DNA of 64,000 bases. It comes from Lytechinus variegatus (taxonomy: Eukaryota > Echinodermata > Echinoidea > Temnopleuroida > Toxopneustidae). Below the pieces are notes generated by a model, which was not told where the DNA came from, searched no databases, and was given only the letters and a program-made list of their open reading frames with translations. The translations under genes and the position numbers were made by a program. Of this stretch, positions 81 to 32,427 are shown piece by piece; the stretch's first letter is position 1, and each line of letters begins with the position of its first letter. The stretch lies in assembly GCF_018143015.1 (NCBI RefSeq), contig NC_054743.1, positions 45,604,922-45,668,921 of the forward strand, read 5' to 3'.

Positions 81-835
81 TATGGCGTGCCAAGTGTACG
101 CCAGTATATTCTGTGCAATTCAAGCAATTCCGTACACAAAATGTGTTTTTATTCAGACGAAAATCTTTTTGTCATGACGCTTTTCTAATTTCGTATACGA
201 AATTTATTTTGTGTCACACAAAATCATTTTCGTCTCGACGAAATGCACAAAATAAATTTCGTTTAGACAAAATGTAATTGCGTCCACAAACTTCATTTGG
301 CGTGCCATACAAAATGGCGCACCAAATGTCCGATGGTAAATTCCGTCCAATTCACGTCATTCCGTACACAAAAGTTTTTTTGTTCGTATGAAAATGATTT
401 CGTCATGACGCAGTTTTATTTCGTATACGAAATTATTCTTGTCACACAAAATAAATTTTCGTCGAGACGAAATGTAATTTGGTCCACAAAATTTATTTCG
501 TACACACGAAATGAATTTTGATCTAACGAAATAGCACCCCAATTGTCCAAAGGAAAATTCTGTAGGAAAATATGTGTTTCACTCCAACGAAATTCATTTC
601 GTCATGATGCAGTTTGATTTCGTATACGAAATTTATTTTGTGTCACACTTATAATCAATTTCCTCGAGACGAAATAAAATTGTGTCCTCGAAATTCATTT
701 CGTTGCGATGCAAATATTTATTCCGTCAACGAAATGATTTTGTGTCACATCACAAAAAATTCCGTCGACGAAATGATTTTGTGTCACATCACAAAAAATT
801 CCGTCCATGTAAAATAATTCTGTCTCCTCTTTCTG
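81..835. repeat. Array of about 20-bp dyad-symmetric units in three higher-order repeats
   Basis: Most units have the form ATTTCGT-(2-4 nt)-ACGAAAT with changing palindromic centres, for example CGTATACG, GTCATGAC and TCTCGA. A header resembling the element's tip (GGCG..CCAA.TGTCC) recurs near 84, 312 and 533, giving three units of about 225 bp. The same arrangement, inverted, occupies 31735-32427. Confidence 0.7.
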
Positions 836-1360
836 GCAGGGAATATGAGATCGTCGCTGATTGGCTGCACCTTGCTCAAGCCGATATCTTCGCTCGATCG
901 ATATCCGGGCGCGGGACGGTCACACTCACAGGTCGGCATGTTGGTGAACCTTTCTTGTTTAGCTTAGATTTCACGTTATTCATGTCAACGAGAGCTGCAA
1001 ACAACTTCTCTAATTGGTAGAATGTGGACGGACATTGCATTCGTAAGTTTAGCTATGTTTTCGACTTCAAAATTACGTTGAAAACAAAATGGGAATTCGT
1101 TAGTCGTTGCCAAACTTGCATTTGCAAGAAGCTGTGCAATTTATAGTCCCGTGTATTCAAGTTTGTGTAGGGTCCTACTGTAGTCGACCATGCCCATGCC
1201 AGGCCAGGGGGGATTGGTCTTTTGTGCACACCTAAAATGGTAATGAATTATACAGGCTGATATTTAGGCCTAGATTTTGATAAATGGTGTAAAATTCATA
1301 CTCAGACTGACTCAGAGCAAAATGCATGTTGAAATTGGAAACTTCATTGGATGACAAATT
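81..1360 (+). repeat. Left long terminal inverted repeat
   Basis: Matches the reverse complement of about 31210-32427. Bases 81-835 are a dense array of about 20-bp dyads; 836-1260 is unique sequence with normal base composition. The last 100 bp (1260-1360) resembles the end of the MITE at 10626-11212, so the TIR's inner edge may be MITE-derived. Bases 1-74 are flank. No convincing coding frame is seen; short open frames across the dyads reflect the repeat. Confidence 0.75.
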
Positions 1361-2750
1361 TTATATAATTATTGACTGTCTGAGACTGAGTCAGTGATTG
1401 ACGTGATTTTATTTTTAGATTATTAAAAACAGCTTTAGCTTGGGCACCCACACGCATTGCGAGGTTAGTATTAATACTGGTAAATTAAACCATTGAACCA
1501 TGTTTGGCAGTGGATTTCGAATTGACAGTTAATGAGTTAGTGGGTCGCGCATGCTGGCTTGCTGCGATCCCACTTCTGCAAGTGATGTCCACGTCCATAA
1601 GGCATATAAACACACCACTTCTAAGTAATGGCTTGGTTTTTCTGTGCGCTGTGGCATGTCAGGGGCGGATCCAGCTTTTATAAAGGGGGGGTTGGGGTGG
1701 TATGTGAGGGAGCGTAGCGACCGAAGCAAGCGAGGGTGTTTGGGGGGGTGTCCCCCCTCCCACGTAGGGAAAATTTTTGAAAATCTGTGTGTGAAAATGG
1801 CGTTTCCTTGCATCTAAAACACCACTATTTTTGATATAGAGGTCGTTGCCAAATTAACCCCCATGAAAATTTGTAAAATTAAGTTGCAATCCCCCATTTT
1901 TTTTTTTTTTAATGGGGGGATTTTTGTTTGGGGATGAGAATCGGCAACCCTGGCCTAGATTGTCACTTCCGCGGTGGCCCGTGTCCTCAAAAAAGCTGAT
2001 GGGGGGCAAAAAGGACTATGTGACATTTGTTCGCCCAACCCTCCCCCCAAATAAATAATAATAATAAATTAAATGAATACATAGAAATAGAATCAAATAA
2101 AATTACAAGTTTTTTAAAAAAGATAAGATTTAAAAAAAATGGTCCCCAGATTTTTTTTTTTTTTTGGGGGGGTTGCAACCCCCCCTCTAGATCTGTTTCT
2201 GCATGTAATGAACCCTTGACTATGAGTTGGGCTTGTCCGTAGACTCTAATGTTAGAGTCGAGGCCTATCTCGGCTCGGGCCCAAAGATGCGCCACCGCGC
2301 ACAGAAAAATCATGTGGTATGGACACCAGAAGTAAGAATGAGATCCCATGCGCGACCCACTGACTTAGATATCCACTGCCAAAACGGTTCATGGTACAGG
2401 GTATAGGGCAAGTCCAAGAAAAGGTCACCCTAGAAGGTAAAATTTTATCTCCAATTTAAGAAGTTATCTTTGGAGGGGTAAGAAAGCCTATCGCCTGTTG
2501 TGGTAGCCTAAGTATGTTTGGCCTAGGTCCTAGCCCCACTCATTACTAGTACAAGTTTAGTTACTTCGAGCGATGTTTGTGCCGGCTCCACTTCACCACC
2601 ACTACTATACGCTCCATCTGGCTGAACATCGTGTCCGTTAAGTCGATCTGATATTCCGAGTGACAAAGGTGGGATTTTATGGGGAAATATAAAACTCATG
2701 GAACATCACGATCTTTAAAAACAAAACTAATATAGGAGGGGGTCCAGTGT
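1361..2750. other. Intergenic sequence with degenerate dispersed repeats
   Basis: No gene seen. A G-rich repeat fragment starting GGGGCGGATCCAG lies near 1662-1815. A second G-rich/poly-T block lies at 1975-2200. About 2640-2690 matches, inverted, 49726-49775, so it is an unidentified dispersed repeat. Confidence 0.5.
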
Positions 2751-2754
2751 CCGG

Positions 2755-3230
2755 ACATGTTATCTTTTGGTTACACTTCGTAATTCAGAAGGTTCGTAAT
2801 TCCAAAACACGTGAATTCATTATTGCCTGAACCACAATGTTCGTTAAATCGAAAAAGGGTTCGTTAATCCGAACATTTGTGGCGTAATTCCGAAGGTTCG
2901 TTAATCCGAAAAGGAATAATGAGTGATAATTCCAAAGGTTCGTTAGTCCGAAAACGAAATGAGGTTCGTTAATCCGAAAACGAAATGAGGTTCGTTAATC
3001 CGAAAAAACTAAATGAACAACGAACCTCATTTTTTTTCGGACTAACGAACCTTCGGAATTATGACTCTCATTATTCCTTTTCGGATTAACGAACCTTTGG
3101 AACAACGAACGTCATTTCAATTTTTGGATTGTCGGACCTTCGGAACAACGAACCTTATTTCGCTTTCAGATTAACGAACCTCCGGAATATCCAAACCTTC
3201 GGAATAACGAAGCTTCGGAATTATGAATGT
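2755..3230. repeat. Foldback palindrome built of TTCGTTAATCCGAA-type units
   Basis: The left half repeats GGTTCGTTAATCCGAAAA-like words and the right half repeats their complement (TTCGGATTAACGAACC). The centre of symmetry is near 3015. Arms are about 230 bp, each with 6-8 imperfect units. No coding frame. It looks like a small foldback element. Confidence 0.7.
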
Positions 3231-3399
3231 AAACAATCTTTTTGAAGCCTTCCTTTTTGTCTTTGGATTACACTAAAAATATGAATTCAATACTTGTTAT
3301 CATCTTCTATTTTGTTCTTTATATTTCCCAACATTTTGTACTAAAATTTGATGAAACTTCGCTTCTAACTTTTTTCAAATGACTTTCTAACATTGATCG

Positions 3400-3575
3400 T
3401 GTGGACACACAACCTGTACGGACACACAACAACTGAGTGACCTGAAACTCAGGCAGGACGTTTAGCAATACTTGATTAACCTTATGCCCAAATTTCATGA
3501 ACTAGGTTTCTAAGTTTTCATTTAAAAAACACAACCTTTTGTTAAGATTTGGTGTTGATGCCGCCACCGTCAGAA
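3400..3575 (+). repeat. Single unit of a dispersed GACCT minisatellite family
   Basis: Contains 'gacctgaaactcaggcagga' and 'cttgattaacctta', matching units of the arrays at 53420-53790 and 63440-64000. Confidence 0.5.
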
Positions 3576-3776
3576 AAACAGCGCCTATAATATAATTTTA
3601 CTCTCCTATGCAGGTGAAACAAAACGGAAGGAAAGAAGGGAAAACACAAATTTTGTGCATTTTCATGTATTTATTTTCAATAGTCTCGGCAGTGCAGCCG
3701 TCCTTGCATGGTAACTATTATATAAAGATTATCCAGCAGCTTGCAAAGGAAAGTCAGTTTCAAAGTAATTTCTTCA

Positions 3777-4016
3777 GTGCACAGATGAGGCGAGGGGGTC
3801 TTCGGGCGCTTGCCCCCTCTCCTCTCCTACAAAAATAAATTATGACCAAGAAAGTAGAAAAGAAAATGGTGAAATATATTTTTTCTGAATATTATGCTTT
3901 CATTGGATATTTATAAAGTTAAATATTTTAATTTTTTTTGCTCGCTCACAAAAAAAAGATCTGCCCAATTATTCATATCTAGCCCCTTCAAAACTTTGGC
4001 TCACTTCGCCACTGAT
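3777..4016 (+). repeat. Dispersed G-rich-ended repeat, copy 1
   Basis: Shares the run gaggggg..cttgcccc, 'aattatgaccaag', 'tttttgctcgctc' and 'gatctgcc' with copies at 9555-9825 (same strand) and 4700-4925 (opposite strand). It has the size of a short non-autonomous element; its terminal structure is not resolved. Confidence 0.5.
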
Positions 4017-4410
4017 TTGTTTCATCACACTTCTATGCAAATACTTACGCCTATAGAATAGAATACATTATATCCTACATGGAGTAAATCATGTATAGTA
4101 CTATTGGTTCAAGTAGCATCATGTGACCGAATATATTTCAACTCTGACGTCATACCTCGATATATTTTTGGATACTAGTATATCGAGGTCTGACATCATT
4201 ATTTCACAAAACTGGATCTAGCTAAACTCTCAGGCACACCGGCCAGCGCGCTCTCTCTCCCGGGCAAGTCCAGCGATGTGTCGGCACAGGCACTGATCTG
4301 CGTTCTGCTGAGCACGATGGCTCAGAGAAAAGTAGGTAATTCAACTCAAGTAACCGGACTTTGCAAGCTCATCACATAGATTTTGGTTATAAATTATAAA
4401 AAGTTGGATA

Positions 4411-4586
4411 AAAAACAAATATATCAGGCGTTTCATTCGAAAGCATAGTGGGAATTATTAATCCTCGGTTGGACTGGCAAAACTACTATATTTCCCTCGG
4501 GGCTTCGCCCCTCAGGAAGTAATTGTCAGACCAACCTCGGATAAATACTTCAACTATACTTTCTCAAAGCCTGATATATTTGTTTA
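4411..4586. repeat. Imperfect palindrome of about 176 bp
   Basis: AAACAAATATATCAGGC at the left mirrors GCCTGATATATTTGTTT at the right. Arms of about 80 bp meet near CTCGGGGCTTCGCCCCTC (about 4497-4514). It may be a small MITE; no target-site duplication was recognised. Confidence 0.55.
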
Positions 4587-4699
4587 CTATTTCTCATAAT
4601 TCCATATGGCTTTGTGTAATTATTTTGTGTCCAGAATTACTTCATTGATATGAAATTTTATTAAGAATCACAAAAACTGCAAGCTCTCTTTTTCTCCTA

Positions 4700-4925
4700 A
4701 TAATCAGAGACAAAATGAGCCCAAGATTTTGAGGGAGTCAGATGTGTCATCAGGCAAAATTCAATAGAAGTTGTGAGCGAGCAAGTTTTTCATTAAAAAA
4801 AATCACATTTTGTAGCTTGACATAAAAATATTCAGAAAATGTTATATTTCATTTTCTTTCCCTTTTTTTTTTGGGGGGGGGGAGAGCATCCCAAGCCTCC
4901 CCCCATCTATGCACCTCTGTCTAGT
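4700..4925 (-). repeat. Dispersed G-rich-ended repeat, copy 2 (inverted)
   Basis: Reverse-complement relative of 3777-4016, with a TGTAGCTTG insertion-like difference and a poly-G run near 4873. No gene seen. Confidence 0.45.
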
Positions 4926-5179
4926 GTCTATATTACTGTTATATTGTTATTTCAAGACTAATTTTCATAGAAACGATTGGTTCAGAAAAAATATTAAACA
5001 CATGCAGCCTTTCATGGAAAGTTCCCCCGGTTGTCCCGAAAAGGTGTGTTTTGTTTGACTTTCCTCCTCAACCCACCCTTTCGAGAAAAGCTCTCGCGGC
5101 ATATCTCAACGTCCGTATGACATATTTGTCCTGCCCACCAGAGGTGAAGGCGAGACTAAGGGATCCAAATGTCGTCTGT

Positions 5180-7000
5180 CCGTCCGTCACAAACCTGTAA
5201 TGACACATAACTCCACAACCGTAAGTCGCTTTTAAACCAAACATGGATGGTAGATGGACCTGGTGGGTGACCTGCATGTTGAGCTGCAGTCAGAGGTCAC
5301 ATGGTAAGGTCAAAGGTCATTTTCAGGTCAACGTTAAAGTTTACATGCAACACTTTTATGACACCTAACTCCACAACCGTAAGTCGCTTTTCAACCAAAC
5401 TTGGATGGTAGATGGACTTGGGGGACCTGCATGTTATGCTGCAGTCTGAGGTCATATGGTAAGGTCAAAGGTCATTTTCAGGTCAACGTTACAGTTCACA
5501 TGCAAGACTCTTATGACACCTAACTCCGCAACCGTAAGTCACTTTTCAACCAAACTTGGATGTTGGATAGACTTGGGGGACGTGCATGTTATGCTGCAGT
5601 CAGAGGTCACATGGTAAGGTAAAATATCATTTACAGGTTAAAGTTTACATGCAAGACTCTTATGACACCTAACTCCGCAACCATAAGTCACTTTTCAATC
5701 AAACATGGATGGTCGATGGACTTGGGGGACGTGCATGTTATGCTGCAGTCAGAGGTCACATGGTAAGGTAAAATATCATTTACAGGTTAAAGTTTACATG
5801 CAAGACTCTTATGACACCTAACTCCGCAACCATAAGTCACTTTTCAATCAAACATGGATGGTCGATGGACTTGGGGGACCTGCATGTTATGCTACAGTCA
5901 AAGGTCACATGGTAAGGTCGAAGGTCATTTTCAGGTCAACGTTAAAGTTTACATGCAACACTTTTATGACACCTAACTGCTTTTCAACCAAACTTGGATG
6001 GTAGATGGACTTGGGGGACCTGCATGTTATGCTGCAGTCTGAGGTCATATGGTAAGGTCAAAGGTCATTTTCAGGTCAACGTTACAGTTCACATGCAAGA
6101 CTCTTATGACACCTAACTCCGCAACCGTAAGTCACTTTTCAACCAAACTTGGATGTTGGATAGACTTGGGGGACGTGCATGTTATGCTGCAGTCAGAGGT
6201 CACATGGTAAGGTAAAATATCATTTACAGGTTAAAGTTTACATGCAAGACTCTTATGACACCTAACTCCGCAACCATAAGTCACTTTTCAATCAAACATG
6301 GATGGTCGATGGACTTGGGGGACCTGCATGTTATGCTACAGTCAGAGGTCACATGGTAAGGTCGAAGGTCATTTTCAGGTCAACGTTAAAGTTTACATGC
6401 AGGACACCTAACTTCGCAAATGTATGTCGCTTTTCAACCTAACATGGACAGTAGATGGACTTGGGGGACCTGCACATGTTACGCTGAAGTGGGAGGTCAC
6501 ATGATAAGTTCAAAGGTCATTTTCAGGTCAACGTCAAAGTTTACATGCAAGACTCTCTTATGAAAACTAACTCCGCAACCGTAAGTCACTTTTCAACCAA
6601 ACTTGGATGTTGGATAGACTTGGGGGATGTGCAGGTTATGCTGCAGTCGGAGGTCACATGGAAAGGTCAAAGGTCATTTACAGGTTAAAGTTTACATGCA
6701 AGACTCTCTTATGACACCTAACTCCGCAACCGTAAGTCACTTTTCAACCAAACTTGGATGGTAGATGGACTTGGGGGACCTGCATGTTATGCTGCAGTCA
6801 GAGGTCACATGGAAAGGTCAAAGGTCATCTACAGGTTAAAGTTTACATGCAAGACTCTCTTATGACACCGAACTCCGCAACCGTAAGTCACTTTTCAACC
6901 AAACTTGCAGACTTATGCTGCAGTCGGATGTCACATGGTAAGGTCAAAGGTCATTTTCAGGTCAATATTAAAGTTTACGTGCAAGGCTGGTATGACAAGT
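5180..7000 (+). repeat. Tandem array of about 12 units of about 155 bp carrying DR1-like AGGTCA repeats
   Basis: Each unit runs through 'cctaactccgcaaccgtaag', 'aaccaaacttggatgg', 'gcatgttatgctgcagtc', 'aaggtcaaaggtcatttt' and 'gtttacatgcaagac'. The GCATGTTATGCTGCAGTC core recurs near 5271, 5428, 5586, 5736, 5882, 6021, 6176, 6327, 6472, 6631, 6783 and 6903. Exact AGGTCAAAGGTCA occurs about six times (5307, 5462, and near 6056, 6665, 6814, 6941), with degenerate forms in the rest. A third half-site (CAGGTCAACG) follows in many units. The open frames here are by-products of the periodicity. Confidence 0.88.
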
Positions 7001-7320
7001 GTTATTCCATCCCAGTAATTTCACAATGAAGTTTTGATATAATTCTTGCGTGCCCTCGCAAATCACAATATTTCTGGTTATTTTCATAAGTGGGCGAGAC
7101 AAAAATTGCTTTTGCCTTGTTTTTTAGTCATGTTCAAAATGAATTAGTGACGATTTCATTTCTCTCGGCATTTTAATCCCCAAGTCTGCATGGTTTAATT
7201 ATGTTTGATGCATGTTTTGCCTTTAGTAGACAGCTGGCAGCCCTCTGCCTCGAGGAGTATTTTATATCTTTTTCTGTATTTGGTGAGTGAAGCCAACGAA
7301 ATTCAGCTGAACAACCAACA

Positions 7321-7520
7321 TAAAGGCATGGTCACACCGGCCGAGCGTTGTTGGAGCGGTAGGGAAAGAGGGTAGAATTTTTCTCTCAAAATGGGGGAAA
7401 AAATCGAAAACAAAAAAAACTAAAATCGAACTTGAAAAAGGTAAACGGTAGCGAGCAGTGATGATTTTTTTTTCTCTCCGCTCCACGACCGCTCCAACAA
7501 CGCTCGGCCGGATGCCTTTA
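7321..7520. mobile_element. Short palindromic MITE with AAAGGCAT..CCGGCCGAGCG ends
   Basis: Ends are TAAAGGCAT near 7321 and ATGCCTTTA at 7520. The inner arms CCGGCCGAGCGTTGTTGGAG and CTCCAACAACGCTCGGCCGG match perfectly. About 200 bp; a TA duplication is possible. Confidence 0.6.
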
Positions 7521-7523
7521 CAC

Positions 7524-8122
7524 TTAAGGGGAATCCAGCCTTGGTCATAAAATATAGTGTTGGAAAGGAGAAAATTAGATAAAACAGAATGGTGAAAGTT
7601 TGAAAGAAATCGGACCAACAATAAGAAAGTTATGGCTGCTTTCAAATTGAAATCCCTATGATTATGTAGATTTCAAAGTGGCAACTGGGTAAGTAAATTA
7701 TGACAAGAGGCAAGGACAACTTTCCCATAGGCCATGTACTTAATTATCAGGGATTTGTGTTTTTCTCCTAACTGCCCTTCCCCTGGGGCAGTAATCTAAA
7801 TATAACCCTGGTAGTATATTGTTTTATGTCCTCATGTGAAAGAAAAATAAAAATTTGAAGTAAAACATTTGAAAAAATGACATATTAGCCATTTTATGTA
7901 TTGGAGTACATGGAAGAGTAGTCCTTGCCTTACATCACTGTGACATCACATATGTGGCCAATTTGCAGTCTCGTGGATCTAGGGATTACCAATATTCACA
8001 ACTTTAAAAAAATAACTTTCTTATTATTTGTCAGATAGTGTTCAAACTTTCACCTATCAACTTGACTGATTTTTCTTATTCCCCTAAGAACAAGTTTTTA
8101 TTTGGGTTGGATTCCCCTTTAA
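7524..8122. mobile_element. TTAA-flanked palindromic MITE, GGGGAATCC family, copy 1
   Basis: TTAA-GGGGAATCCAGCC at the left and GGTTGGATTCCCCTTTAA at the right. A second copy lies at 38647-39248 and aligns along its whole length. TTAA target choice suggests a piggyBac-like mobiliser; no transposase inside. Confidence 0.78.
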
Positions 8123-8449
8123 CAGAGATTGAAGCTTTTGTTCTAGTTTTGGCTCTGCTATTTTTTTGATTGGATGTATTTCCTGATTTATCACAATAAT
8201 TGCAAGTTTTATCATGATTTAACTTTTTGAAAATTATGCTATTATGTGATTAAGGCTACATCTCTTGTACTTTCTACCGATAGTCTCAATATAACGTTAT
8301 TAATGGATTATTTCTTGTAAAAAATCCTAAAGATAGGAACTAACTCTGTGGTTTGTAGATAAATATGACTCACTTGTCCAGGTGTTGATAAACGGGCCGC
8401 TGCTGAGTAGGCCTAGAGTTTTCTTAATTATATATAATTGATTTCATGA

Positions 8450-8683
<234 letters not shown>

Positions 8684-9296
8684 TAGATCTATATCATACG
8701 TGTTTTAAAGAAATATAATCTCTGTATTATCTATCTACCTTTGGTTTGACAGAACAATGTTTTGAATATTCCATTCTCAGTAGCCAAAGAGAAATGAAAA
8801 TTATCCTATTCGGGAGGGTCACCATGGACCTCGGCCTATACTGTGTACCAGGGGACTGTGTATTTTAAGTTAACGCTTACTAAATGATCAAACAAATTAA
8901 AAATTTGGTTTAGCCCTACATAATTAGCATGAGCTTCTTTGAAATTGCAAAGCTAAGGGTGTATTGCTGATTTTTCATAATTTATTAAAATTCATTTTTG
9001 ATAAATTATTTTATGCATAAATAGAGAATTCTCTGCTGTACAGTTAAGTAAATCTCTAAATAAGTTCCCAAGTTCTACAGTGCGTATGAAAAAATGGGAT
9101 AGATTTGAAAAGTCTATAAAATTTTTGTTTCAAATTATGATCTCAATATTTTGGTGTCAATACATGCTATGGAGTCTTATCCTTCAAATGCTATTAAAAT
9201 AATTTGGTTTTGTTCGTGCTTACGCAAACACAAATTTTTGTTTTGTCTGGGGTAAAAAAGGAAGCTTGCGCCAAAATGGCATAATATGATGGTCGG

Positions 9297-10215
9297 ACTT
9301 CTTGCTATCAGCAGAATTCCTCTTAACCTTTTCATTATCTTTGCCATAATTTTCGAATTATGCAGTCAAAATTCATTTCCAAATCTACTTATTTATTTGG
9401 ATAGTTGTGGTGTTGTTCCTTTTTAATATGTTCTCTTTTAGTTTTGAATATTCCTTCCTTAGGCAAGAACATTTTTTTAAACCAAATTATGGTAGAGCGT
9501 GTTTTTTTTCGAATCCTTTCATTGTGTTCTGCAAAGGTTATGATGCCTTTGAACAGTGGCATACTGAGGGGTGGGGGCTCGGGGTGCTCCCCCCCCCCTC
9601 CCAATACAAAATTATGACCAAGGAAAAAAGTGGAAAGAAAAATAACAGAAAACATAGAAAGTGAAATATGATATTATTCTGAATGTTATGTCAAAATCAC
9701 AAAATTGGATATTTTAGTAAAAACTGGAAATTTTTGCTTGCTCGCTTCACAACTTTTTAATGCATTTTACCTGATCTGCCATATCTTCCTCCTTCAAAAT
9801 TGACTCAATACACCATTGCCATTGAAAGACATGAATATTTTCTTGTTTGTCCTGTCAAGCACATAATTAAACTTGGTGAAGGATTCAATGACCCCTTGAA
9901 AATAGGATTCATGTCTTTTATAGGTACCATTACATAAATTGTTTCACATAATTATCATCAAAGGTACCATAACATAATTTGTTTCACATAATAAAAAGGA
10001 TTTGAATGATTACAAATTCTCCCAATTAAAAATGCAAATCTTCTCACTTGGGTTGACAAGAAAGTCTCTTCTTACTTATGAAGGAAAATTCAAAGGTAAA
10101 AGAAGTTCAAATTAAAACCAATGTAATTCAGGTAAATGAATAAATTTATTAGTGAAATTTGACAGCATTTTTCGAAAATTATGGCAAAGATAATGAATAT
10201 ATTATAAGTCTGCTG
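9297..10215. mobile_element. Palindromic repeat with nested G-rich element
   Basis: About 80 bp at 9297-9380 (containing TCATTATCTTTGCCATAATT) recurs inverted at 10130-10215. The element at 9555-9825 sits inside, so it is younger. The whole block lies in the THAP gene's intron. Confidence 0.5.
9555..9825 (+). repeat. Dispersed G-rich-ended repeat, copy 3
   Basis: Shares 'aaattatgaccaaggaa', 'tttgcttgctcgctt' and 'ctgatctgcc' with 3777-4016. Overlapping open frames on both strands are not genes. Confidence 0.5.
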
Positions 10216-12956: not shown

Positions 12957-12989
12957 ATTAAGTCTACATTAAGCAAACATAAAATTCTT

Positions 12990-13250
12990 ACAATTGAATT
13001 CAGTGGCATATATAATGAGCCAAATATTTTGAGAGGGCTAAATATGGCGAATGGAACAAAAGTTCTCCAAAGAGAGCGAAGGGAGTGTGCAAAATTTTAG
13101 AACTTTTTAATACAGAAATCAAAATTTGGAAAGATTTTGACGTAATAATATCCAGTAAATACTCTCTATTTCACCCTTTCTCGTTCGCTTTCTTTTTCTC
13201 CTTTTCTTTCTTGGTCGTTAAACATTGGGGGGGGGGGGGCAGTCAGACCG
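12990..13250 (+). repeat. Degenerate dispersed repeat ending in poly-G
   Basis: Begins near 'cagtggcatatataatgagcc' (related to 9555-9825) and ends in a run of 11-12 G near 13228. No gene seen between 13250 and 13990. Confidence 0.35.
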
Positions 13251-13997
13251 CAGGTCCCTATGCTAATGAGCAAAAAGTCCAGATACATCCAAATCATCTC
13301 GTGGCTGAATCCTTGCAAAATCTTGTGATTCATGAGATTTTCTTTCTCGAGTCTAAGAATTTACCTGTTTTAAAGAGAAATTCCAGTATTGGTAACGATC
13401 TCAAAATGACTTTTTACAGAATCTAATATAATGACCACCCAAGTGTCTGTTTGTATGAATAAAAAATATGTGCCAAAGGATTCTGGAAGAAATTGTGTAA
13501 TTGCTGAGAAATAAGCAAAATAAGCTCATATTCCAGCAATAATAATACACTGTCCCACGTGTGCCTATCTGTGTTGGTGATCTTCAGTGTGAACATTTTT
13601 CAGCGTAGATTTCAAGATTTCACAAAGTTCAGTTTATGTAACTTTACCAAATCTAGATCCTCGATGATATACTGACAATTAAGCCAGACTTTCTCATGAA
13701 ATCAGTGTTTACTGCAACTACTGGCATTTCTTTTTAACCTCAAGTTAAATTAAATATTATTGCACTATCAGATAGAGTAAAAGTTACTCTTTCATATTGG
13801 TCATTTATTTTGTATACAATATTTTGTTAAATAAGTAAATTTCTGGCCTGAAAGTGTGCCTCAAAACTTAATTTTCTTCTTCCATTTTCTTTTGCACATT
13901 GTGCAAACTTTTTATTTTGAGCCTCAATGATATCCATATCACCAAAAGCTGAACTTCTTTTCTTTCTCACAATGCCACTCTTGATATGCGGCACCTT

Positions 13998-14291
13998 TTA
14001 ATCGGGTCAAGATCACACTTTTCCCACTAAGGTACAATACGAGATTTCTGTAATTTTGTACTTGCATGAAATCCAGAGTTCTGATTGGCTGGATAAGGTT
14101 CACAGAACAACAGGCACAGGGTATTTGAGGAGATTACCACATGGGAAGTGTGACCTTCCTACGAACCCTGGCATTGGAACCGTTGGAATTTGCCACTGGG
14201 TGGTCTATTTGACCAATCAGAATGCAGTATTCTTGTTTTCAAACTGCTTTATGTACTTGGCAAATGAAAAGTGTGATCTTGACCCGATTAA
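13998..14291. mobile_element. TTAA-flanked MITE of about 290 bp with TCGGGTCAAGATCACACTT ends
   Basis: TTAA then TCGGGTCAAGATCACACTT at the left; AAGTGTGATCTTGACCCGA then TTAA at the right. The terminal match is perfect over about 22 bp and imperfect further in ('agttctgattgg' against 'ccaatcagaatgc'). Confidence 0.8.
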
Positions 14292-15063
14292 ACCAATTCT
14301 TATTTTGAAACCTATATCGTTTCAAAGCATACATATTCAGCTTTATCATGATATAAAAATCATTTGGGCTCAAACACAAATAAAGTGTGAAAATAGCAAC
14401 TTTTGTCTGGTGAAAATATTTATTTTATAGCATATTTTAGATCAAACTTTGAACCTATATTACAAAATCTTTGAATAAATCCAAACATATGACATGAAAG
14501 AATGATTCTTCTTCTTTACAATGGTACCAAATTCATGAAATTCGATGCACAGTTAGAGCAGCAATGACCGAATGAAAAGGTGTTATGGTCCGCGTCAAGC
14601 TCATTAAATATACAAAACATCTCAAGTCATGAATATCATTTGGATGAAAGAAGCCACTCTCTTGGGACCTGCAGTCTGACTGGGGGGCATGGCCCCCATC
14701 TATACATCAGTGATGGATTTAATACTTTTTGCATGTACGATGACGATGCTCGCTCTCTCTCACCCATCCTCACTATGTGTATATGTGTGTGCAAGATGAA
14801 TTATGAGGAATAATTGCATGAAGTGACGTTTTTCAACCAGAGATTGATCCTTATATATTATTTACTATTGCATTTTTGTTCATCATATTGACCCATCTTG
14901 ACCCCTTTACCCCCCCCCCTGACAAAAACCTAATAGTCAAATGAAGTTTCCTTTTCTTTTCTTTTGATATACATGTAATGTATTCATGTGAGAAAAAAAA
15001 TTATAGTGCCAAACATTTTTTGAAAATTTTAATTTATTCCTTCAGGTGAGGTTTTGTCCACAG

Positions 15064-20025: not shown

Positions 20026-20233
20026 AAATTTTAAAAAATATATTTATTTAGTAGTTTACTGTAAATACACAGTATAGGCCCCGGTCCATGGTTATCCTCC
20101 TGATTAGGATAATTTTCATCTCTATTTTGCTACTGAAAATTGAATAATTAAAGCAATGTTCTATCAAAACAAAGGTAGATAAAACAGAATATATATTTCT
20201 TTAGAACGCATGTATGATATAGATCCACTGTAC

Positions 20234-20447
20234 CTTCTGAAGACGAGGCGGGAAATCAAATATGGTTGGGACAGCATCCTGTTTAAGACGTATCGTCTGC
20301 CCAGGTCAAAGCAAGCATCTTCAAAATGATCAGAACAGAGTACAGAGCTCTTGGAGGAATTCAATGAAGCTCGCTTCATATTGACCATCCTTACTGTGTT
20401 ACAGTTCCGGTCTTGGTACCGGTTCAGTCCAATGGCTGAATGGGAAT
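20234..20447 (-). pseudogene. Inverted copy of the THAP-domain exon
   Basis: On the minus strand it encodes [17 protein letters not shown], like 8472-8677. A 4-bp loss (relative to the left copy, after the codon for the final Asp) breaks the frame before the AVP box. Splice sites TGCTGCAG and AAG|GTACAG are kept. It retains 12 bp missing from the left copy, so the two copies decayed independently. Confidence 0.72.
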
Positions 20448-21063
20448 CTGCAGCAAATGTAAACACATGTCATAGAATCAATTACACATAATTAAGAAAG
20501 TTTGACGTGTCCAAAGGAAACAGATGCCCCCGCAGAATTGTACAAAATGTTTTTTTATTGTTTTATGATGCAATTTTCTGTAAATCAATTAAACTATACA
20601 CTAAATAAAATAAGATTTCAGTTCTTGATGTTTTAATAAGAGATTACCACAATTTTGTTTATGAATTTTGAACAGAAAAGTTGATATTTCCCCCCAAATT
20701 ACTAAATCATGGAAATTGAATGCCTACAAAAAAAAAACACTTTATAAGTAATATGACATTTCATTCCTAATACATGATTATATACGTGTTGTCCCTAGGT
20801 GTCCTGAGTCTTGTCAATCGAGGGGGGGGGCGAGGAGAATTTGCACAATGGAAAAATTGATATACATTGGGTTTCAAAGCTTAATTTCATTTCGGGTAAA
20901 TCAATATGCTTTATTTCATTTGAATCAATTATACCAATTTTAGGGCATAAAATACAAATTCAATTCAAACCTATAAATATAGCCCTTGAACTACTTATTT
21001 TTTTAATTCAGGAATTCTGATCAAATGTATATTAAAAACAATCAGTAGGCCTATATAATGTTT

Positions 21064-23012: not shown

Positions 23013-23315
23013 CCCTTTTGACTCTCTAATTTACTCCATTGGCTCTTTTTTTTTTTTAGATAAGCAGTTTTCAGCAGCTTCTTTTTGCCTTTAACATGAT
23101 GATAATCAAACAGATTTTCAGGATTCCAAACATCATCAAAAAATATATTATCATGGATTGTTAAACTCTTTAGATACCTAAACGCACAATTTTATGAATG
23201 CTATGCGTATATTAGAGGAAGAATTTATTAAAATTTTGATAAGGGTCTGAAAACGAGTCCAATTATGGATGACCTGAAGTGGTAGAATCTTTGTCAATTC
23301 AATTATTTTACTACC

Positions 23316-24085
23316 TTAACCCTAATTCTCCGGGGGGGGCCATAATGGCCCCCCCCCTCAACAATTTTCACGATATATCTGCTGCGCGAAATTTTTTCAC
23401 CTCGCAGCTCACTGACTTTTTACATTCAAGTCTCGCGCAAATTTTGAGACCAAAGTTGTGAAGCCCGGGTACGCGGTTACGACATTACGCAACATTATGC
23501 AAGTGCATGTCAGACCCAAAATTGCTCATAAACGTGATTTCATGTACAAATCCAATGCAAATTGCGTATTTAGCCAAAATTCATAAATGTATCATTATTT
23601 CTACTTTTACTGATTAAACTTAATTATTTTTGCCTTGTTTATGATCAGAATTATGTCTGGAACAATTTCCATTGAAAAAACAATAAAAAACAAAAAGTAA
23701 AAAAACAAAGAAATACATAAGAAATTCATAAAACAATAAAATACATAAGAAATTCATTTCCAAACCAAAGTTTTTTTGAATTACGATTGTTAAGAATGCT
23801 ACAAAGAAAATTTTTACCAAAAATTAGCATTCTAGGAGCTTTATTTAGTGAATTAGAGCAAAAAGTATGATTTTTGCATAAATTAGCATAATTAATTCAT
23901 ATAAAATAAAATCTCTTTTTTTTGGAAAATTTTACCATACAGCCTTGTAGATTTCATCGCACACTACCAGCGTGCAAATTTTTGCGTCGCTCGCGTGATC
24001 GGCGGCCGAGATCTTAAGGGGGGGCCATAATGGCCCCCCCCCCGGGAATGACAAGAATCAAAATACCCGGGAGATTTAGGGTTAA
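23316..24085 (-). mobile_element. CCCTAAA-family MITE, copy D
   Basis: TTAACCCTAATTCTCCGGGG at the left and GGGAGATTTAGGGTTAA at the right, with CCATAATGG flanked by G and C runs at both ends. Interior landmarks match the other copies. Confidence 0.78.
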
Positions 24086-24246
24086 ATTAACACTTGTTAT
24101 AATTTCTGTGCATTACAATTACTATTGAATGATTTATCCCACTTGTTTGCTATATAATTCATTTTTCTTTAAATTATTACGTAATAAAATTTTCAAATTT
24201 CGAGGCTCATTTGAATGTCACAGTCTATCCACATGATATCACTACA

Positions 24247-24845
24247 TAAAGGACAAGTCCACTCCAACAAAAACTTTATTTGAATAAAAAGAGAAAAATT
24301 CAACAACCATAACACTGAAAATTTCAACAAAATTGCATGTAAAATAAGAAAGTTATGGCATTCTAAAGTTTCGCTTCATTTCACAAAACAGTTATGCACA
24401 TCTCGGTCGATATGCAAATGAGAAACTGATGACATCACTCACTATTTCTTTTGTAATCTATTATATGAAATATGAATTATTTTTATTTCTCGTCATTGTC
24501 ATGTGAAATGAAGTGTCATTCCTCCCTGAACACGTGGAATTACATTATTTTAACATTTTGTGCTTCAGGCAAGGAGGTCCTAATTGTCAAATTTGTAAAA
24601 AATGAAATATTGTATAATTCAAACAATAAAAAACAAAAGAAATAGTGAGTGACATCATCGACTCTCTCATTTGAATGTAACTGGCTCGTTAATATAACTA
24701 TTTTGTTCAAAATAAGCGAAACTTTGAAATGTCATTAATTTATTATTTTACATCCGATTTTGATGAAATTTTCAGCATTGTGCTTGTCTGGTCCTTCTCC
24801 ATTGATTCAAATCAACATTTTTTCTGAGGTGGACTTGACCCTTAA
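24247..24845. mobile_element. TTAA-type palindromic MITE, AGGACAAGTCCAC family, copy 1
   Basis: Left ATAAAGGACAAGTCCACTCC, right GAGGTGGACTTGACCCTTAA. Interior 'aataagaaagttatggcatt' and the inverse near 24735. The copy at 41624-42659 has clean TTAA on both sides. Confidence 0.78.
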
Positions 24846-25439
24846 GAAAGAAGTAAGTTATGACAGGTTTGGAGATGTCATAACTATTTGGTCAAGTTGT
24901 CCCCGATCTTGGCAAAGAGGGATTCGTGAAACAGTTCGCTAACAGGTAGCTAACTATTTCCAATTTAGTTAAGAAGTTAGAAGACTTAACGGTGTTGAGA
25001 AACGGGCCCCAGTCTACGCAAGCAGAACCAAACAGAATCAGTTTGCCACACTCAAATTCCCAATTTGCACTCGCATCAATTATTTAGTTACGTACCTATC
25101 ATTTTATGATCTAGTGCATAGAACAAATGACCATTTTTTTTAGGTCGGAATGTCAACAATTTTCAGCTCGTGCTTCGCATTCCCATTATTGAAATATGTA
25201 CCATCCTCATGGTTAAACAGTCCTTAACAGGATCATGCTAGAACACTTATTAAAATTTATGTTCGTGCTTGGCATTCTCAGTAATTATCTAGAACACACA
25301 CATCTTGTTCAGGATCACAAACGGTGCCTAGAATGTTAAATTTTCAGGACAAAATACATCCTAAATACATATATAAAAGTTCCAAAAAAAGTAAGAAAAA
25401 AAATTGCTTGCCTTTGCACTTTTTATATAAGGCCTACGT

Positions 25440-25925
25440 GATTATTTCATATTGATGTTATTTTATAAGAAACCAACTCGCATATTTAATGACCCAGTGT
25501 AGTGGTCGCGCCGGATGCGCACCCCCAACCAGTAATTGGGAGGAGATACCTGCGGGTCACAGTTCTGTGTGCGCACCCTTGTAGGCGACCCAGATTGGCT
25601 GGCTCCTCCAATACGCCTTGGAATGTCTTTAACAGATATATGGCACTATATAAATGCTGTGCATCATCATCTACCAACACACCCAAATTTTAAAAAATCT
25701 GATGACTTTTGATAAGATATCGTGAGGAATCCAACTCGCATATTTAATGAGCTGTGATCTTTGACCAGCATATTCCGAATTCGAACTTAGCCTGTATTGG
25801 TATCATCTACCTACACACCCAAATTTGTTCAAATATTAAGTAGAATATTTCATAACTCATAAAAAAGACATTATCATGCGGAAACTAAATTGCATATTTA
25901 ATGTGTTTTGACCTGCCGACTCCAA
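25440..25925 (+). repeat. Degenerate tandem repeat ('gaaaccaactcgcatattta') split by a SINE
   Basis: The words 'aactcgcatatttaatgagc', 'cttagcctgtat' and 'ctacctacacacc' recur here, at 22310-22430 and at 30295-30365. A separate insert interrupts the unit at about 25498-25672. Confidence 0.5.
25498..25672 (+). mobile_element. Short SINE-like insert
   Basis: Higher GC than its surroundings; starts 'ccagtgtagtggtcgcgcc' and ends 'ggcactatataaatgctgtg', the latter resembling the 3' part of the tRNA-SINE at 25930. Box A/B promoters are not clear. Confidence 0.4.
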
Positions 25926-25929
25926 ATTC

Positions 25930-26275
25930 AAACTTGGCCGGTTCTATCAGAGGGTCGTGTGTTCGAATCCCGCCATGGACTAGCGTCCTTTGGCAAGGCG
26001 TTAATCCACTTTGCCACTCTCCACCAGGTGTTAAATGGGTACCTGGTAGGATGTGAAAGCCTATGTATAATGTAGTATGCCTAGCAATTGAGTCTTGGAA
26101 CTCTTGTTGGAGTGCTCCCCAGGGAGTGGAGAAGGTGCATACATTGTACGCAGGCATACAAGGTTCTGATGACCGTGGTAATACTGAGTCTGGAAAGCGC
26201 TTAGTCTCTTAGAGACGTCGTTCCGATGCATTAAGCGCTATATAAATATGTGGAATATTATTATTATTATTACTA
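25930..26275 (+). mobile_element. tRNA-derived SINE with (ATT)n tail
   Basis: An RNA polymerase III box B-like GTGTTCGAATCCCGCC lies at about 25951-25966. The 3' end is AAGCGCTATATAAATATGTGG followed by ATTATTATTATTA. Length and tail fit a tRNA-related SINE. Confidence 0.7.
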
Positions 26276-26819
26276 TGGTGTCATCCACTCCTATGGTGTC
26301 ACCCACTCCAAGCTGTGGGGAAGTTACACATTGATGCAGAGGTTCGAGCCCTGATCACGTCTTTCGGATTGTGACATTAAAGGTCGGTCCCAGACGTAAA
26401 TAATCAAACCTGATTGATATACGTCTGTCAAAAACTCAAAATACACACACACACTCCTAGTACCAATGATTAATGTTAATGTTTGGACCTCATAGGCGAC
26501 ATTACCCAAAATATGGGTTGCCGGTTGGACAATGCTGTTCTGAATCTGATTTCAAACCCAAGACTTTGGTAAATGTACGCCTTAATACAAATTGGAGTTA
26601 TGCGATATGACTTTCATTTGGTGGGAAGACATTTAATACTTTATAAAATTAGTTGAAATTAAAATGGATTATATTAATGCTCACTGTTGGTGAGCATTTC
26701 TACACGATCCCCCTATTGAGATTTATAGTAAATATTTTGGAATTATATTAGTTATGCGACCCCTCCCTCATGATGATCACAGCATTATTTGTAATGGGGA
26801 TATATTTCGTTCATATATT

Positions 26820-27265
26820 CTTGTCTCTTCTTTCTCTTTTTAGCCTTTTTTTTGCTTGTTAAAACCTTTTCATTTTTTGGGGGGGGGGGGCTTGCCAAAT
26901 TTTATGTGGGTCAAAATTACATTCATTTTTTTAGTGACAATCTTATTTTTCATTTGTCAAATTTTACGCAAGACAAAATTACCTTCGATCATTATTACAG
27001 TTAAAACCTTTTTTTTAATTTTAATTTTTTTTTTTTTGGGGGGGGGTTGCCAAATATAACATGGACAAAATGACTTTCCCTTTTCTTATTTATTTTTTTG
27101 GGGGGAGCTTGCCGAATATCACGCGAACGAAATGACTTTCATTTTTAGTGACCATCACTTTACGTGAGACAAAATGACCGGTTTTTTTTAAGTGAGAACC
27201 TTTTTTGGGAGTTGTCTAATTGTACTTGAGAAAATTCACCCCACCCCCCCCCCCTACTTTGGAAA
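26820..27265 (+). repeat. Imperfect tandem repeat with poly-T/poly-G blocks
   Basis: About four units each contain a T-rich stretch, a G run, 'ttgccaaat' and 'gacaaaatnac' near 26880, 27030, 27100 and 27165. Not coding. Confidence 0.55.
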
Positions 27266-27296
27266 ATCTTGGATTTACCTCTAGTTTTAATCATGA

Positions 27297-28041
27297 TTAA
27301 CCCTAAATAGACTGGGCTATTTCGATACCTAAGAAGACTGGGGAGGGGGGCTGATTCAGCGCCCCCTTATGATCTCGGACGTCGATTGCGCGATCGCGAC
27401 GAAAATTGGCACACATTACCCATGGCATAATCTACCAAATTATCACATCAAATTATGCAAAAAATCTCATGTTTCATTAATTATGCTAATTTTTGCGTAA
27501 AATCATTAGTTTGCTCTAATTAATAAAATAATGCCCCTGAAATGCTAATTTTTGTTTCACCTACTCTAGATAGGCATCTGATCAAATTTATTTTTAAAAA
27601 ATTTCAACATCATGTTTATTTTCTTATGTATTCTATTGTTTTCTAAATTTCTTCTGTATTTCATTGTTTTTCGACTTTGTTTTTCATTGTTTTTTCAATG
27701 GAAATTGTCAGGGACTTTATTTTGACCATGAAAAAGATAAAATAAATTGATTTTAAGCAGTAAAAGGAAAAATAATAATACATTTATGAATTTTGGCTAA
27801 AAACACTATTTGTATTGGATTTGTACACAAATTCACGTTTTTGAGTAATTTTGGGTCTGCATGCACGAACGAAATGTTGCGTAATTTCGAAACTGTGTAC
27901 CGGGGGTCACAATTTTGGTCTCAAAAGTTGTGCGAGACTTGAAAGTAAAAAGTCGGCGAGCAACGCGGTCAAAAAGATTTGCGCGGCGGATTTATCACGA
28001 AAAATGTCGAGGGGGGGCTGATTCAGTCTTTTTAGGGTTAA
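27297..28041 (+). mobile_element. CCCTAAA-family MITE, best-preserved copy E
   Basis: TTAA-CCCTAAATAGACTGGGC at the left and GTCTTTTTAGGG-TTAA at the right; 745 bp. Seven or eight other copies in the window share its interior, e.g. 'ttaattatgctaatttttgc' and 'ggtctcaaaagttgtgcgag'. CCCTAAA next to TTAA is piggyBac-like. No coding capacity. Confidence 0.8.
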
Positions 28042-28559
28042 GATCATGCGTATACCACGGCAGAGGCGTAAACCGCTGCAGGGGCATGCAGGCTGGCCCT
28101 TGATCCCTAGTGGATTTCACCGGAAAAAAAATCCAGATAAGAGAAAAGGAAAGAAAGAAAGAGAGAGGGGGGGGAGAAAGGGAAGACTGGGAAATAAACG
28201 AAAAGGTCCCCCCCCAAAAAAAAAGGAGGGGAAAAGAGAGAAGAAAAAGCGAAATCATTAAAGGGGTGTATATTATAACTTCATTTATAATTGTTTTTCC
28301 TTCTTTTATGGGGGGGGGGTCAAAAAAATAAAAACCTTAACGAAATGTTTTTCTATAATTACATTTAGGTCTACACTCGCGATTTAATAAAAAATAGTAG
28401 CCATCTATATACAAATGATGCGTTAGAGTGGGTCAGTAGGAACTCTGTGTACAAGGTAACCACATGCACACAGTTCCACTGACCCACGAAAGAAACCCAT
28501 GCATCATCTGTTTTATAGAATGGAATTTTTTTTTTAATAAACCACAAAAATTAATGATT

Positions 28560-28685
28560 TACTGGATGCATGATAATTTCATGCGTCCGGTAAATTTAAT
28601 TTACCGGACACATGATTTTTTTTACCGGACGCATGATTTATTTACTGGACGCATGATTTATTTACCGGATCGATGCATGAAAATT
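28560..28685 (+). repeat. Short array of CCGGACGCATGATTTATTTA units
   Basis: Four to five units of about 22-24 bp, the first one inverted, so the array starts with a small palindrome ('ttaccgg'...'ccggtaaa'). Confidence 0.6.
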
Positions 28686-29138
28686 CCAAAATCTAATGCA
28701 GAGCGCAGACACTTTGATAACCCTGGACAACATAAATATGGGCTTAACTGGATAATGTTGCCACAAAGATATTGTTATACCCAAAATGCCAGATACAGCT
28801 TTGCATTGACTATATCTTGAGCAGTTGAGGCAGCCTCGGACCTCCAATACATGTAGCTGTGTGTGTGTATGCGGGCCGCGCCGGGGGCCAGCGCCTGCCT
28901 GGGCCTGCAGTGGATATTTCGCTGTGCACAGCCAGCCCAGGGCAGTATAGATCTAACGTTAGATCGTACTTCTCAACTAACGAGTATGTGGGCAGTTTTA
29001 ATCCCAATGACAATTACGGTACCGTATTTGTACTTACAGATCATTTTGCATCCTTTGATTCATTCTGCTTTGATCGAAATTCAAATTTTGACGTAAACAA
29101 GTGACGGTAACAGTACATGCGCGATGACATCACAATGA

Positions 29139-29139
<1 letters not shown>

Positions 29140-29177
<38 letters not shown>

Positions 29178-29352
29178 CAAGTGCACACCTAGTTACCAAT
29201 AATGCATATAGCATTTCCATTTATTTGAAAGCAGGATAAAAGAGCATTGTAGATTAAATGCCTTGCTCACGGGCATAGGTGCCGCGGCCGGGGATCGATG
29301 TCCGGACTTTCCATGTATAGCCAGGCGCCTTAGACCACTCGGCCACGGCACC
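29140..29352 (-). mobile_element. tRNA-Leu/Ser-like SINE with poly-A tail (minus strand)
   Basis: On the minus strand it starts GGTGCCGTGGCCGAGTGGTC, a class II tRNA head with a box A. CGGCACC pairs with GGTGCCG 75 nt downstream, like an acceptor stem, and GATCCCCGG takes the box B place. About 110 nt of unrelated body and a poly-A run of about 30 follow (poly-T at 29142-29172 on +). The disturbed T-loop and anticodon arm argue against a working tRNA. Confidence 0.72.
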
Positions 29353-30545
29353 TCCACTTTTCGGGCGATTGCTTGTTTACAGTGGATATCGTTGCGTTTT
29401 GATTATCGGGATATCGTTCATGCAGCCCAGTAAAATTTTTGCATTGCTCTCAACCAATCAGATTGCAGGGATTTTCTCATCCATTCTATAAAAAGTTTTA
29501 AAATTGCTAAAGATCCAGAGATATCAAAACCCACCTGCTGATTTAGCACTGGGGTACACAAGCCAGGGTTATGCCCAGTGCATGCCCCCCGAATGTTCTA
29601 CGTACAACCAAGATATAAAAAAATGAAGGGAATTAAAGAAACCAAAATTAGGAAAAGTGTAAGGTAAGATATCTGTCTCAAATTTAGATTTGCACGAAAG
29701 GTTTTTTCTCGCTTGCTTCATTCGCTTGGAACATATAAAGCAACTTTATTCCCACGTGCCATATGTTTCGGCCTCTTTCTTTCTACTAATTCATTTTTTT
29801 TACTCATCATGCTCCTGCCACACAGGGGTTTGCCCTAATGCATGAACAATCATTAAAAAATATCATTTTCATACCATGTGACTGGGAATTTTTTGCTCTA
29901 CCCCTCCCCCCTCGATCCCTGTATCGATTTGACTTGACATGGGCCTATACCTGATGTATTCTGCTTCAATATAAAATCATAACGGATAGAACGCCTTGAT
30001 TGAATACAGGCCAAACAGCCTAACGACACACACACACACACATTGCCGTGTCACGTGACAATCAGTATTAAACGAGGATGTGTACAACCCTATGGCGACA
30101 AGGCTAGTCGCAAAAGTTGAGCAAGTTCTGGACGAATAGGCTTCAATACCCCAAGAAAAGAAGTAGTATCTAGGGACTAATTAAAAATAGTTTTCTTAAT
30201 GGAGTTCCATGTTAAAATCTAGTAATTTAAGTCCAACTTTTAATTCGCGTGCACTCACTTTTTTAACACAGGAATTAATAGGCACGGTGCCTAGAGTGTC
30301 CTCTACCAACACACCTAAATTTAAAAAAAAACAATCAAATATATTTCAATTTATTGCACTGAAACCAAGTGGGGGTGGGGGGGGGAGGCAGGCAAATCAA
30401 TGGACAGGTGGAACGCTTAATGCCCCCTCCGGACTTTGTCTGCGAGAGCATAATTACAGAGGAGCTGAATTTGAAGAGGGCCTGAATCAAGACTGAAACA
30501 TCGCAATACGTGTAAGTGGAGTAGCCTAGGCTAGGGCACTCACAC
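29353..30545. other. Intergenic sequence, no gene seen
   Basis: Contains a (CA)n run near 30027, a copy of the 'ctaccaacacacctaaattt' repeat near 30300 and G-rich tracts near 30370. No supported exon. Confidence 0.45.
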
Positions 30546-30555
30546 TAGTACGAGG

Positions 30556-31101
30556 CCGGGGGGGGGGGGCACTCAGTATATAATGCATAGTGGGTATGTG
30601 CCGCGGAGGGGACCCCCATTTTTACACCCAAATTTCCGTTCCAAGCCAAGGCATAGCATTTTTGTCTTATTGAGAAAAAAACAAAGAAAGCTGCTCCAAG
30701 GCAAAGCATTTTGTTCTTATCTAGAAAAAAGAAGAAATTCGCTCCAAAGCTTCGCATATTTTTCGTTACGCCATTCCGGTCGCATTGATCTGCTGCAATT
30801 TTGGTGAAAAGCGGCCACAGAGCGCTGTCCGACCATCGTCTCTGAGCGAGCGCACCCGGCGGAGGCTGCGCTAGCTGCATCACGGATGCCCGTTCCATAG
30901 GGATGCATACGCACGTACTCACACGCTGGCGATCGATCCGTTCCAACTTCCAAGGACCCCCATTTCACAAAATTTTAGTTCCAAACCCCGTTCCGAGGAC
31001 CCTCCTTTTTACAATACTCCCGCTCCAAGCCCAAGGCCCCCGTTTTTGTCTCTCCTGCGGCACACCCCCACCACTTTTTTGTTCAAGTGCCCCGGCCCGG
31101 G
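30556..31101 (+). mobile_element. hAT-like MITE with poly-G ends, copy 2
   Basis: GTACGAGG occurs at 30548-30555 and 31102-31109, an 8-bp target-site duplication. The body is nearly collinear with 15808-16313. The open frames here on both strands are also present in the other copy and are not genes. Confidence 0.82.
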
Positions 31102-31209
31102 GTACGAGGTTAGTGAGGCTGGGTAAACTTGCGCCAAGTTGCGGCCAAGCCCGCCCAACATGCCCAAACTGTTGAATAAATTTGTTATTTCAAATTAAAA
31201 AAAATATAT

Positions 31210-32427
31210 TTGTCATCTGATTTCAATGAAATTTTCAGCATTTTGCTCTGTATGAATTTTACATTATTTGCTAAGTTCTAGGCCAAAATATCTTCAGCCT
31301 GTATAATTCCTCACCATTTTAGGTGTGCAGAAAAGACCAATCCCCCCCCCCCCTTTGTCTGACTACAGTACACAAACTTGAATACATGGGACTATAATTT
31401 TTACAGTACACAGCTTCTTGCAAATGAAAGTAGCACGTATGGCAACCACTACGATTTCCCATTTTGTTTTCAACGTAATTCAAACATAGCTGAACTTACG
31501 AATGCAATGTCCGTCCACATTCTACTAATTAGAGAAGTTGTTTGCAGCTCTTGTTGGCATGAATAACCATGATAACGTGAAATCTAAGCTAAACAGGAAA
31601 GGTTCACCAACATGCCGACCTGTGAGTGTGACCGTCCCGCGGCCGGATATCGATCGATCGAAGATCGGCTTGAGCAAGGTGCAGCCAATCAGCGACGATC
31701 TCATATACCCTGCCAGAAAGAGGAGACAGAATTATTTTACATGGACGGAATTTTTTGTGATGTGACACAAAATCATTTTGTCGACGGAATTTTTTGTGAT
31801 GTGACACAAAATCATTTCATCGACGGAATAGATATTCGCATCGCAACGAAATGAATTTTGAGGACGCAATTTTATTTCGTCTCGACGAAATTGATTATAA
31901 GTGTGACACAAAATAGATTTCGTATACGAAATCACACTGCATCATGACGAAATGAATTTCGTTGGAGTGAAACACAAATTTTCCTACAGAATTTTCCTTT
32001 GAACACTTGGGGTGCCATTTCGTTAGATCAAAATTCATTTCGTGTGTACGAAATAAATTTTGTGGACGAAATTACATTTTGTCTCGACGAAAATTTATTT
32101 TGTGTGACAAGAATAATTTCGTATACGAAATAAAATTGCATCATGACGAAATCATTTTCATATGAACAAAAAAACTTTTGTGTACGGAATGGCGTGAATT
32201 GGACGGAGTATGGCACGCCAAAAAAAGTTTGTGGACGCAATTACATTTCGTCTAGACGAAATTTTTTTCGTTGAGACAAAATTAATTTTGTGTGACACAA
32301 AATAAATTTCGTGTACGAAATAAAACAGCGTCATGACGAAAAGATTTTCGTCTGAATAAAAACACATTTTGTGTACGGAATTGCTTGAATTGCACAGAAT
32401 ATACTGGCGGACACTTGGCGCCCCATA
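31210..32427 (-). repeat. Right long terminal inverted repeat
   Basis: Reverse complement of 81-1360. The dyad array occupies 31735-32427; the GC-richer inner segment lies at 31320-31730. Small indels relative to the left arm are concentrated in the inner part. Confidence 0.75.

Follow-up and report, generated by a model that had tools for sequence, protein, structure and literature searches.

What kind of unit occupies positions 81 to 32427 of a 64,000-nucleotide stretch of the Lytechinus variegatus genome (the window; NC_054743.1, positions 45,604,922 to 45,668,921), and how did it come to lie there? A first-pass annotation had described 1.2-kilobase (kb) inverted ends bordered by a direct repeat of 6 base pairs (bp), and both features are real. 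Positions 81 to 1301 align with the reverse complement of positions 31250 to 32427 at 86.8% identity over 1,248 columns, and the alignment breaks off precisely at 81 and 32427, each flanked on its outer side by GTTATT; the inner limits proposed earlier (1360 and 31210) lie approximately 40 to 60 bp past the aligned arms. Identity between the arms is 93 to 99% in six of the eight outermost 100-column segments, 80 and 66% in the other two, both of which are gapped, and approximately 60% towards the inner edge. Short palindromes (7-base arms, spacer of at most 6) number 9 in the outer 700 bp of the left arm and 12 in the outer 707 bp of the right arm, and occur at 1.24 per kb in the interior. We found that this unit is a giant DNA transposon present in full, one copy of an element that usually measures approximately 30.8 kb and has arms of 1.2 kb.

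The genome (869,567,369 bases in 33 contigs) has four bindin matches, two of which score above 220 bits, whereas 14 control genomes have none; bindin identifies it as an echinoid. We searched it for the termini of the unit with a 33-base pattern, allowing up to 3 mismatches. This yielded 122 termini (58 forward and 64 reverse) and none for the reversed control. When neighboring ends less than 80 kb apart were paired among the 100 termini listed, 74 of them formed 37 facing pairs on 15 contigs, a left-type end opposite a right-type end in every case; 26 of the listed ends and the 22 unlisted ones were left unpaired. Among the matches listed, the spacing of the pairs ranged from 27,506 to 55,758 bp with a median of 30,808 bp, and the genome therefore holds the similarly spaced pairs that the first-pass annotation had proposed to look for. 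That annotation had also suggested that the whole unit moved once: it did move as one piece, but the 37 pairs reflect many insertions. We call these copies family A. Searches with the arms scored the best 40 of 163 and the best 40 of 649 candidates, and copy numbers are thus lower bounds. The right ends of L045, L058, and L028 begin with AATGG instead of TATGG, and two of these adjoin assembly gaps.

Five further copies, each read in four stretches, match the window copy along the whole unit except for insertions and deletions. In the 15 pairwise comparisons of these six copies, divergence was 0.136 to 0.387% substitutions, with gaps uncounted and with the 5.2- to 7.0-kb tandem array and two insertions of the window copy left out. 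Two 40-base interior markers (up to 3 mismatches) were found at 54 and 58 places, with none in the controls. Each was detected in 36 pairs out of 37. Of the places outside the pairs, 14 and 16 had an unpaired arm within 60 kb, and 4 and 4 had none so close (3 and 2 of the latter with 3 mismatches). A third interior query of 1.5 kb gave 40 matches at 96 to 100% identity (the best 40 of 447 candidates). One copy of 45.6 kb (C3:25956205-26001798) carries the 4.0-kb interior marker three times at 5.4-kb steps, which represents internal tandem growth.

A perfect 6-bp duplication flanks 29 of the 35 testable family A pairs: four of five in a first set (the window, C2, C3, and C12 copies) and 25 of 30 in a second. 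The remaining 2 of the 37 pairs have a gap at one end and were left out. By chance, a perfect duplication is expected in approximately 1 of 4,096 pairs. When the flanks of the window copy were joined via one GTTATT, they matched 39 places without a break (among the best 40 of 1,916 first-look candidates), indicating that the unit is inserted in a repeat present at high copy number, other copies of which are empty. This repeat corresponds to window positions 1 to 74 and 32434 onward. The two empty sites that were read out (L123 and L125) aligned at 253 of 257 positions, gap-free and with a single GTTATT. For the C12 copy, the joined flanks matched one other place (C12:23190739-23190992, or L124) at 253 of 254 positions, also gap-free and with a single GTCAAC. 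These empty sites are paralogous, not allelic. The single GTTATT that the first-pass annotation had proposed to look for exists, although not as an empty allele.

Because the ends are paired, the copies nearly identical, the 6-bp duplications present, and empty sites available, we conclude that the unit is a recently amplified DNA transposon of approximately 31 kb. It has inserted whole at many sites, with one left-type and one right-type end, and has duplicated 6 bp of its target. That some ends adjoin assembly gaps is the one feature expected of an ordinary segmental duplication or an assembly artifact, an explanation we consider extremely improbable: the copies have sharp common ends beyond which no match continues past 81 or 32427, their flanks are unrelated, and both target duplications and empty sites exist.

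The genome also contains a related family, B, whose arms are 66 to 81% like those of family A over their full length and whose ends are TATGACAAGCC (left) and TATGGGGCGCC (right). Nine family B pairs, paired by hand, are spaced 29.9 to 51.1 kb apart; six have a perfect 6-bp duplication, and one further pair has a 7-bp duplication. Across both families (n = 35 perfect duplications), position 1 of the duplication is most often G (19/35) and position 6 most often C (15/35). One B copy, read in five pieces, shares blocks of mostly 70 to 84% identity with family A, which are collinear at the left and have private sequence between them. Its longest frame, of 230 amino acids, is retrotransposon-like by eye. 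In L031, a third relative, 436 bp of arm are shared at 86.7%. A wider clan of ends, TATGNNNNGCCAAGTGT, was found at 131 places with a pattern excluding A and B; the reversed control gave 1 place, and 100 of the 131 were listed. Two such identical 19-base ends, C10:1020289 (+) and C10:1159074 (-), face each other 139 kb apart and are possibly chance neighbors.

One block common to both families appears to have a separate history. Window positions 13240 to 14682 and L040 positions 2722 to 3787 form a 92% A/B block that is oppositely oriented and differently placed in the two families. The 955-bp block at 13732 to 14682 (92% like B) was rejected as a gene, as a stop and a gap distinguish its A and B frames, and we interpret it as a nested repeat in its own right; in B, it breaks sequence that is collinear with A at 3668 to 3673. 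The A matches on either side of the L040 block share a 6-bp overlap, which a nested element would leave.

Family B bears on the origin of the unit. The outer ends of two neighboring smaller elements could have trapped approximately 28 kb of host DNA, giving a composite (a macrotransposon). This scenario concerns origin only, as movement would still occur in trans. It would account for an interior that is largely repeat-rich and host-like and for two arms whose mutual identity (86.8%) is far lower than that among copies of either arm. The interior blocks beside the arms, however, are collinear between A and B at approximately 78 to 84%, implying a longer common history of the arms and part of the interior, and no short free-standing element bearing these arms was seen, which leaves a composite origin distinctly unlikely. 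We also rejected the arms as small free elements in their own right: L029 and L030 differ behind the same arm, but the remaining B copies that were read have interiors in common, and B ends pair at 30 to 51 kb.

The termini resemble those of a described superfamily. IS3EU elements, with which GingerRoot is grouped, have inverted repeats longer than 30 bp, ends of the form TAYGG..CCRTA, and a 6-bp duplication (PMC12730594); a second account gives TA..TA termini and, usually, a 6-bp duplication (PMC10045372). The unit is alike in all of these respects, with its duplication in 29/35 family A and 6/9 family B pairs, TAYGG..CCRTA at both family A ends (in family B, at the right end only), and inverted repeats of 1,248 aligned columns. 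It differs in that autonomous members encode an IS3/IS481-like DDD/E transposase, whereas no such domain was recognized in this unit of approximately 31 kb. Judged by its ends, family A would fit IS3EU only as a non-autonomous member. The first-pass annotation had considered an undescribed family, and this description fits the size and content of the unit but not its end type.

We then considered what the interior encodes. Pfam scans of all six frames of positions 1300 to 31000 gave only two weak matches (E = 0.14 and 0.086). A Pfam scan of the 150 longest frames (among 580 of at least 30 amino acids) found a THAP domain in two frames, with a best E of 1.7e-8. Twelve further families were matched by a single frame each (best E = 0.0029, approximately the chance level for 150 scans). 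Transposase, polymerase, and integrase domains were recognized in neither scan of the unit, in agreement with the first-pass annotation, and there was no Rfam match to a structured RNA across positions 1 to 33000. The same annotation had suggested that the unit carries a THAP gene, but no working gene is present as far as was seen. The 78-amino-acid frame at 8450 to 8683 covers positions 32 to 87 of the 87-position profile, and the 250 bp upstream contain no frame that provides the zinc-binding half it lacks. A second copy (20167 to 20469) lies in two parts in different frames and gave no profile match at an E of 0.01. On these grounds, a THAP gene was rejected both as cargo and as the transposase. 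In the family B counterparts, a stop is present or zinc ligands are lost.

The unit could nonetheless be autonomous, with its own transposase gene split into numerous small exons or with an undescribed type of enzyme. Autonomy would explain why pairs are near full length (none below 27.5 kb among the matches listed) and copies nearly identical, and domain searches are weak on short exons, as the THAP piece missed by the six-frame scans illustrates. On the other side, the longest stop-free frame is only 152 amino acids, and the 150 longest frames are without a domain except for THAP and the chance-level matches. Moreover, no protein conserved between A and B is evident, because, in all 70 ungapped stop-free segments (at least 30 amino acids) compared with the B copy, similarity is lower at the protein level than at the DNA level. 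The unit may still contain a gene split into many short exons or a gene restricted to family A; overall, we regard autonomy as unlikely.

Instead, we think that the unit is probably a giant, non-autonomous, IS3EU-like element that has been swollen by nested insertions and depends for its movement on an enzyme produced elsewhere. An IS3EU-type DDE transposase, supplied by another element or locus, would act on it in trans, and this helper might be encoded by an IS3EU transposase gene between ends TATGGNNNGCCAAGTG. The enzyme would bind the termini (TATGG) as well as the outer parts of the arms, which are rich in palindromes, mobilize the unit, and join it into cuts staggered by 6 bp. Growth to 31 kb would have occurred through tolerated nested insertions between the arms while the ends stayed functional; the nested insertions of 762 and 212 bp in the window copy count in favor of such growth.

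Several observations weigh against this reading. There are no short deletion derivatives among the 37 pairs (26 listed and 22 unlisted ends being unpaired), which is unusual for a passively mobilized element; the burst may be too young, or the interior may be required in cis. Six of the 35 pairs are without a perfect duplication: L043/L044 (one mismatch), L057/L058 (right end CCATT, followed by 11 bp of repeated left flank), L075/L076 (three mismatches), L085/L086 (a 5-bp match), L093/L094 (a TG repeat), and the C11 copy (which adjoins a gap). The left end of family B starts with TATGA and not TAYGG, with which its right end agrees. The search for a helper with the IS481 profile gave 65 matches (the best 65 of 1,386 candidates), none of them above the cutoff or tied to the ends; most lie in frames of more than 600 amino acids and are probably retrotransposon polyproteins. 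The 131 ends of the wider clan, of type TATGNNNNGCCAAGTGTND, gave no helper either: the 6 kb behind four of them (L127 to L130) contains no frame longer than 141 amino acids and no second end. Finally, domain searches have limited reach, since the long six-frame scans missed the THAP match seen in single frames. An alternative is a self-sustaining giant lineage, comprising A, B, and the clan sharing TATGNNNNGCCAAGTGT, in which the interior of approximately 30 kb is required in cis or encodes an unrecognized multi-exon enzyme. We judge such a lineage unlikely, if still deserving of serious thought; were it real, only near-full-length units would spread, and it would be a large DNA transposon of a new kind in animals, not one swollen passively.

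Foldback elements (the sea urchin TU type and Tetris) have long inverted arms made of internal repeats, and the unit likewise has long inverted arms; TU duplicates 8 bp, whereas the unit duplicates 6 bp and has TATGG termini. Polintons (Mavericks), among the types the first-pass annotation had suspected, end in AG, again in contrast to TATGG. They share with family A long inverted repeats and a 6-bp duplication (PMC10045372). Beyond this duplication, the properties tested do not resemble those of Polintons: the Pfam scans of the unit recognized no domain of a protein-primed DNA polymerase B, an integrase, a capsid protein, or an ATPase. A decayed Polinton or other virus-derived element is accordingly very unlikely. 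Styx, an IS3EU-related element of the fungus Zymoseptoria, is likewise a young burst in which copies with a degenerate transposase still move, and its describers take these to use the enzyme of intact copies; it differs in being 7,927 bp long with four open reading frames (PMC10853768). Pack-MULEs and large retrotransposon derivatives also hold captured or noncoding DNA within terminal repeats and are moved in trans. They belong to other superfamilies, and DNA between two long terminal repeats (LTRs) rarely exceeds 10 kb (PMC6431247). That review of giant transposons counts elements of more than 20 kb and emphasizes coding capacity, and its accessible part describes no gene-poor DNA transposon of such size (PMC6431247).

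No description of such an element was found in the open-access literature (most subscription journals, Repbase, and Dfam fell outside this search), nor was an open-access paper linking IS3EU with sea urchins. Non-autonomous DNA transposons are usually short. With 37 paired copies of 27 to 56 kb on 15 contigs and no recognizable enzyme gene, the family makes the size limit of trans-mobilization in eukaryotes testable. It also shows how 30 kb of DNA full of repeats can be copied and scattered, with results that can be mistaken for segmental duplication.

Table 1. Features of the window copy of the family A element (positions in the window).
Feature	Positions	Strand	Observation
Left target-site duplication, GTTATT	75-80	+	Read directly; single at paralogous empty sites L123 and L125
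Left arm, terminus TATGGCGTGCCAAGTG (left type)	81-1301	+	4-7 differences per ~1,220 bp from each of five other copies
Outer left arm, candidate enzyme-binding array	81-780	+	Palindrome density; binding putative
Interior without recognizable transposition gene	1302-31249	none	Longest stop-free frame as given in the text
149-bp tandem array	5200-6997	+	Most variable region among copies
THAP half-domain relic	8450-8683	+	Pfam THAP match as given in the text
THAP-bearing repeat, second copy, inverted and frame-shifted	20167-20469	-	80% DNA match to 8420-8959
Nested insertion, 762 bp	23320-24081	none	TTAA at each side; missing from 5/5 other copies compared
Nested insertion, 212 bp	29145-29356	-	T run and tRNA-like end, short interspersed element-like by eye; missing from 4/5 other copies, different sequence at the site in the fifth (C2)
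Right arm, inward terminus TATGGGGCGCCAAGTG (right type)	31250-32427	-	4-7 differences per ~1,178 bp from each of five copies
Outer right arm	31721-32427	-	Palindrome-rich
Right target-site duplication, GTTATT	32428-32433	+	

Two further features of the window lie outside the unit. A 1,018-amino-acid frame on the + strand at 35411 to 38467 matches RVT_1 (E = 1e-33) and is a seemingly intact retroelement frame, and a tandem array at 57153 to 63274 consists of units of approximately 0.9 to 1.0 kb that are 88 to 94% alike.

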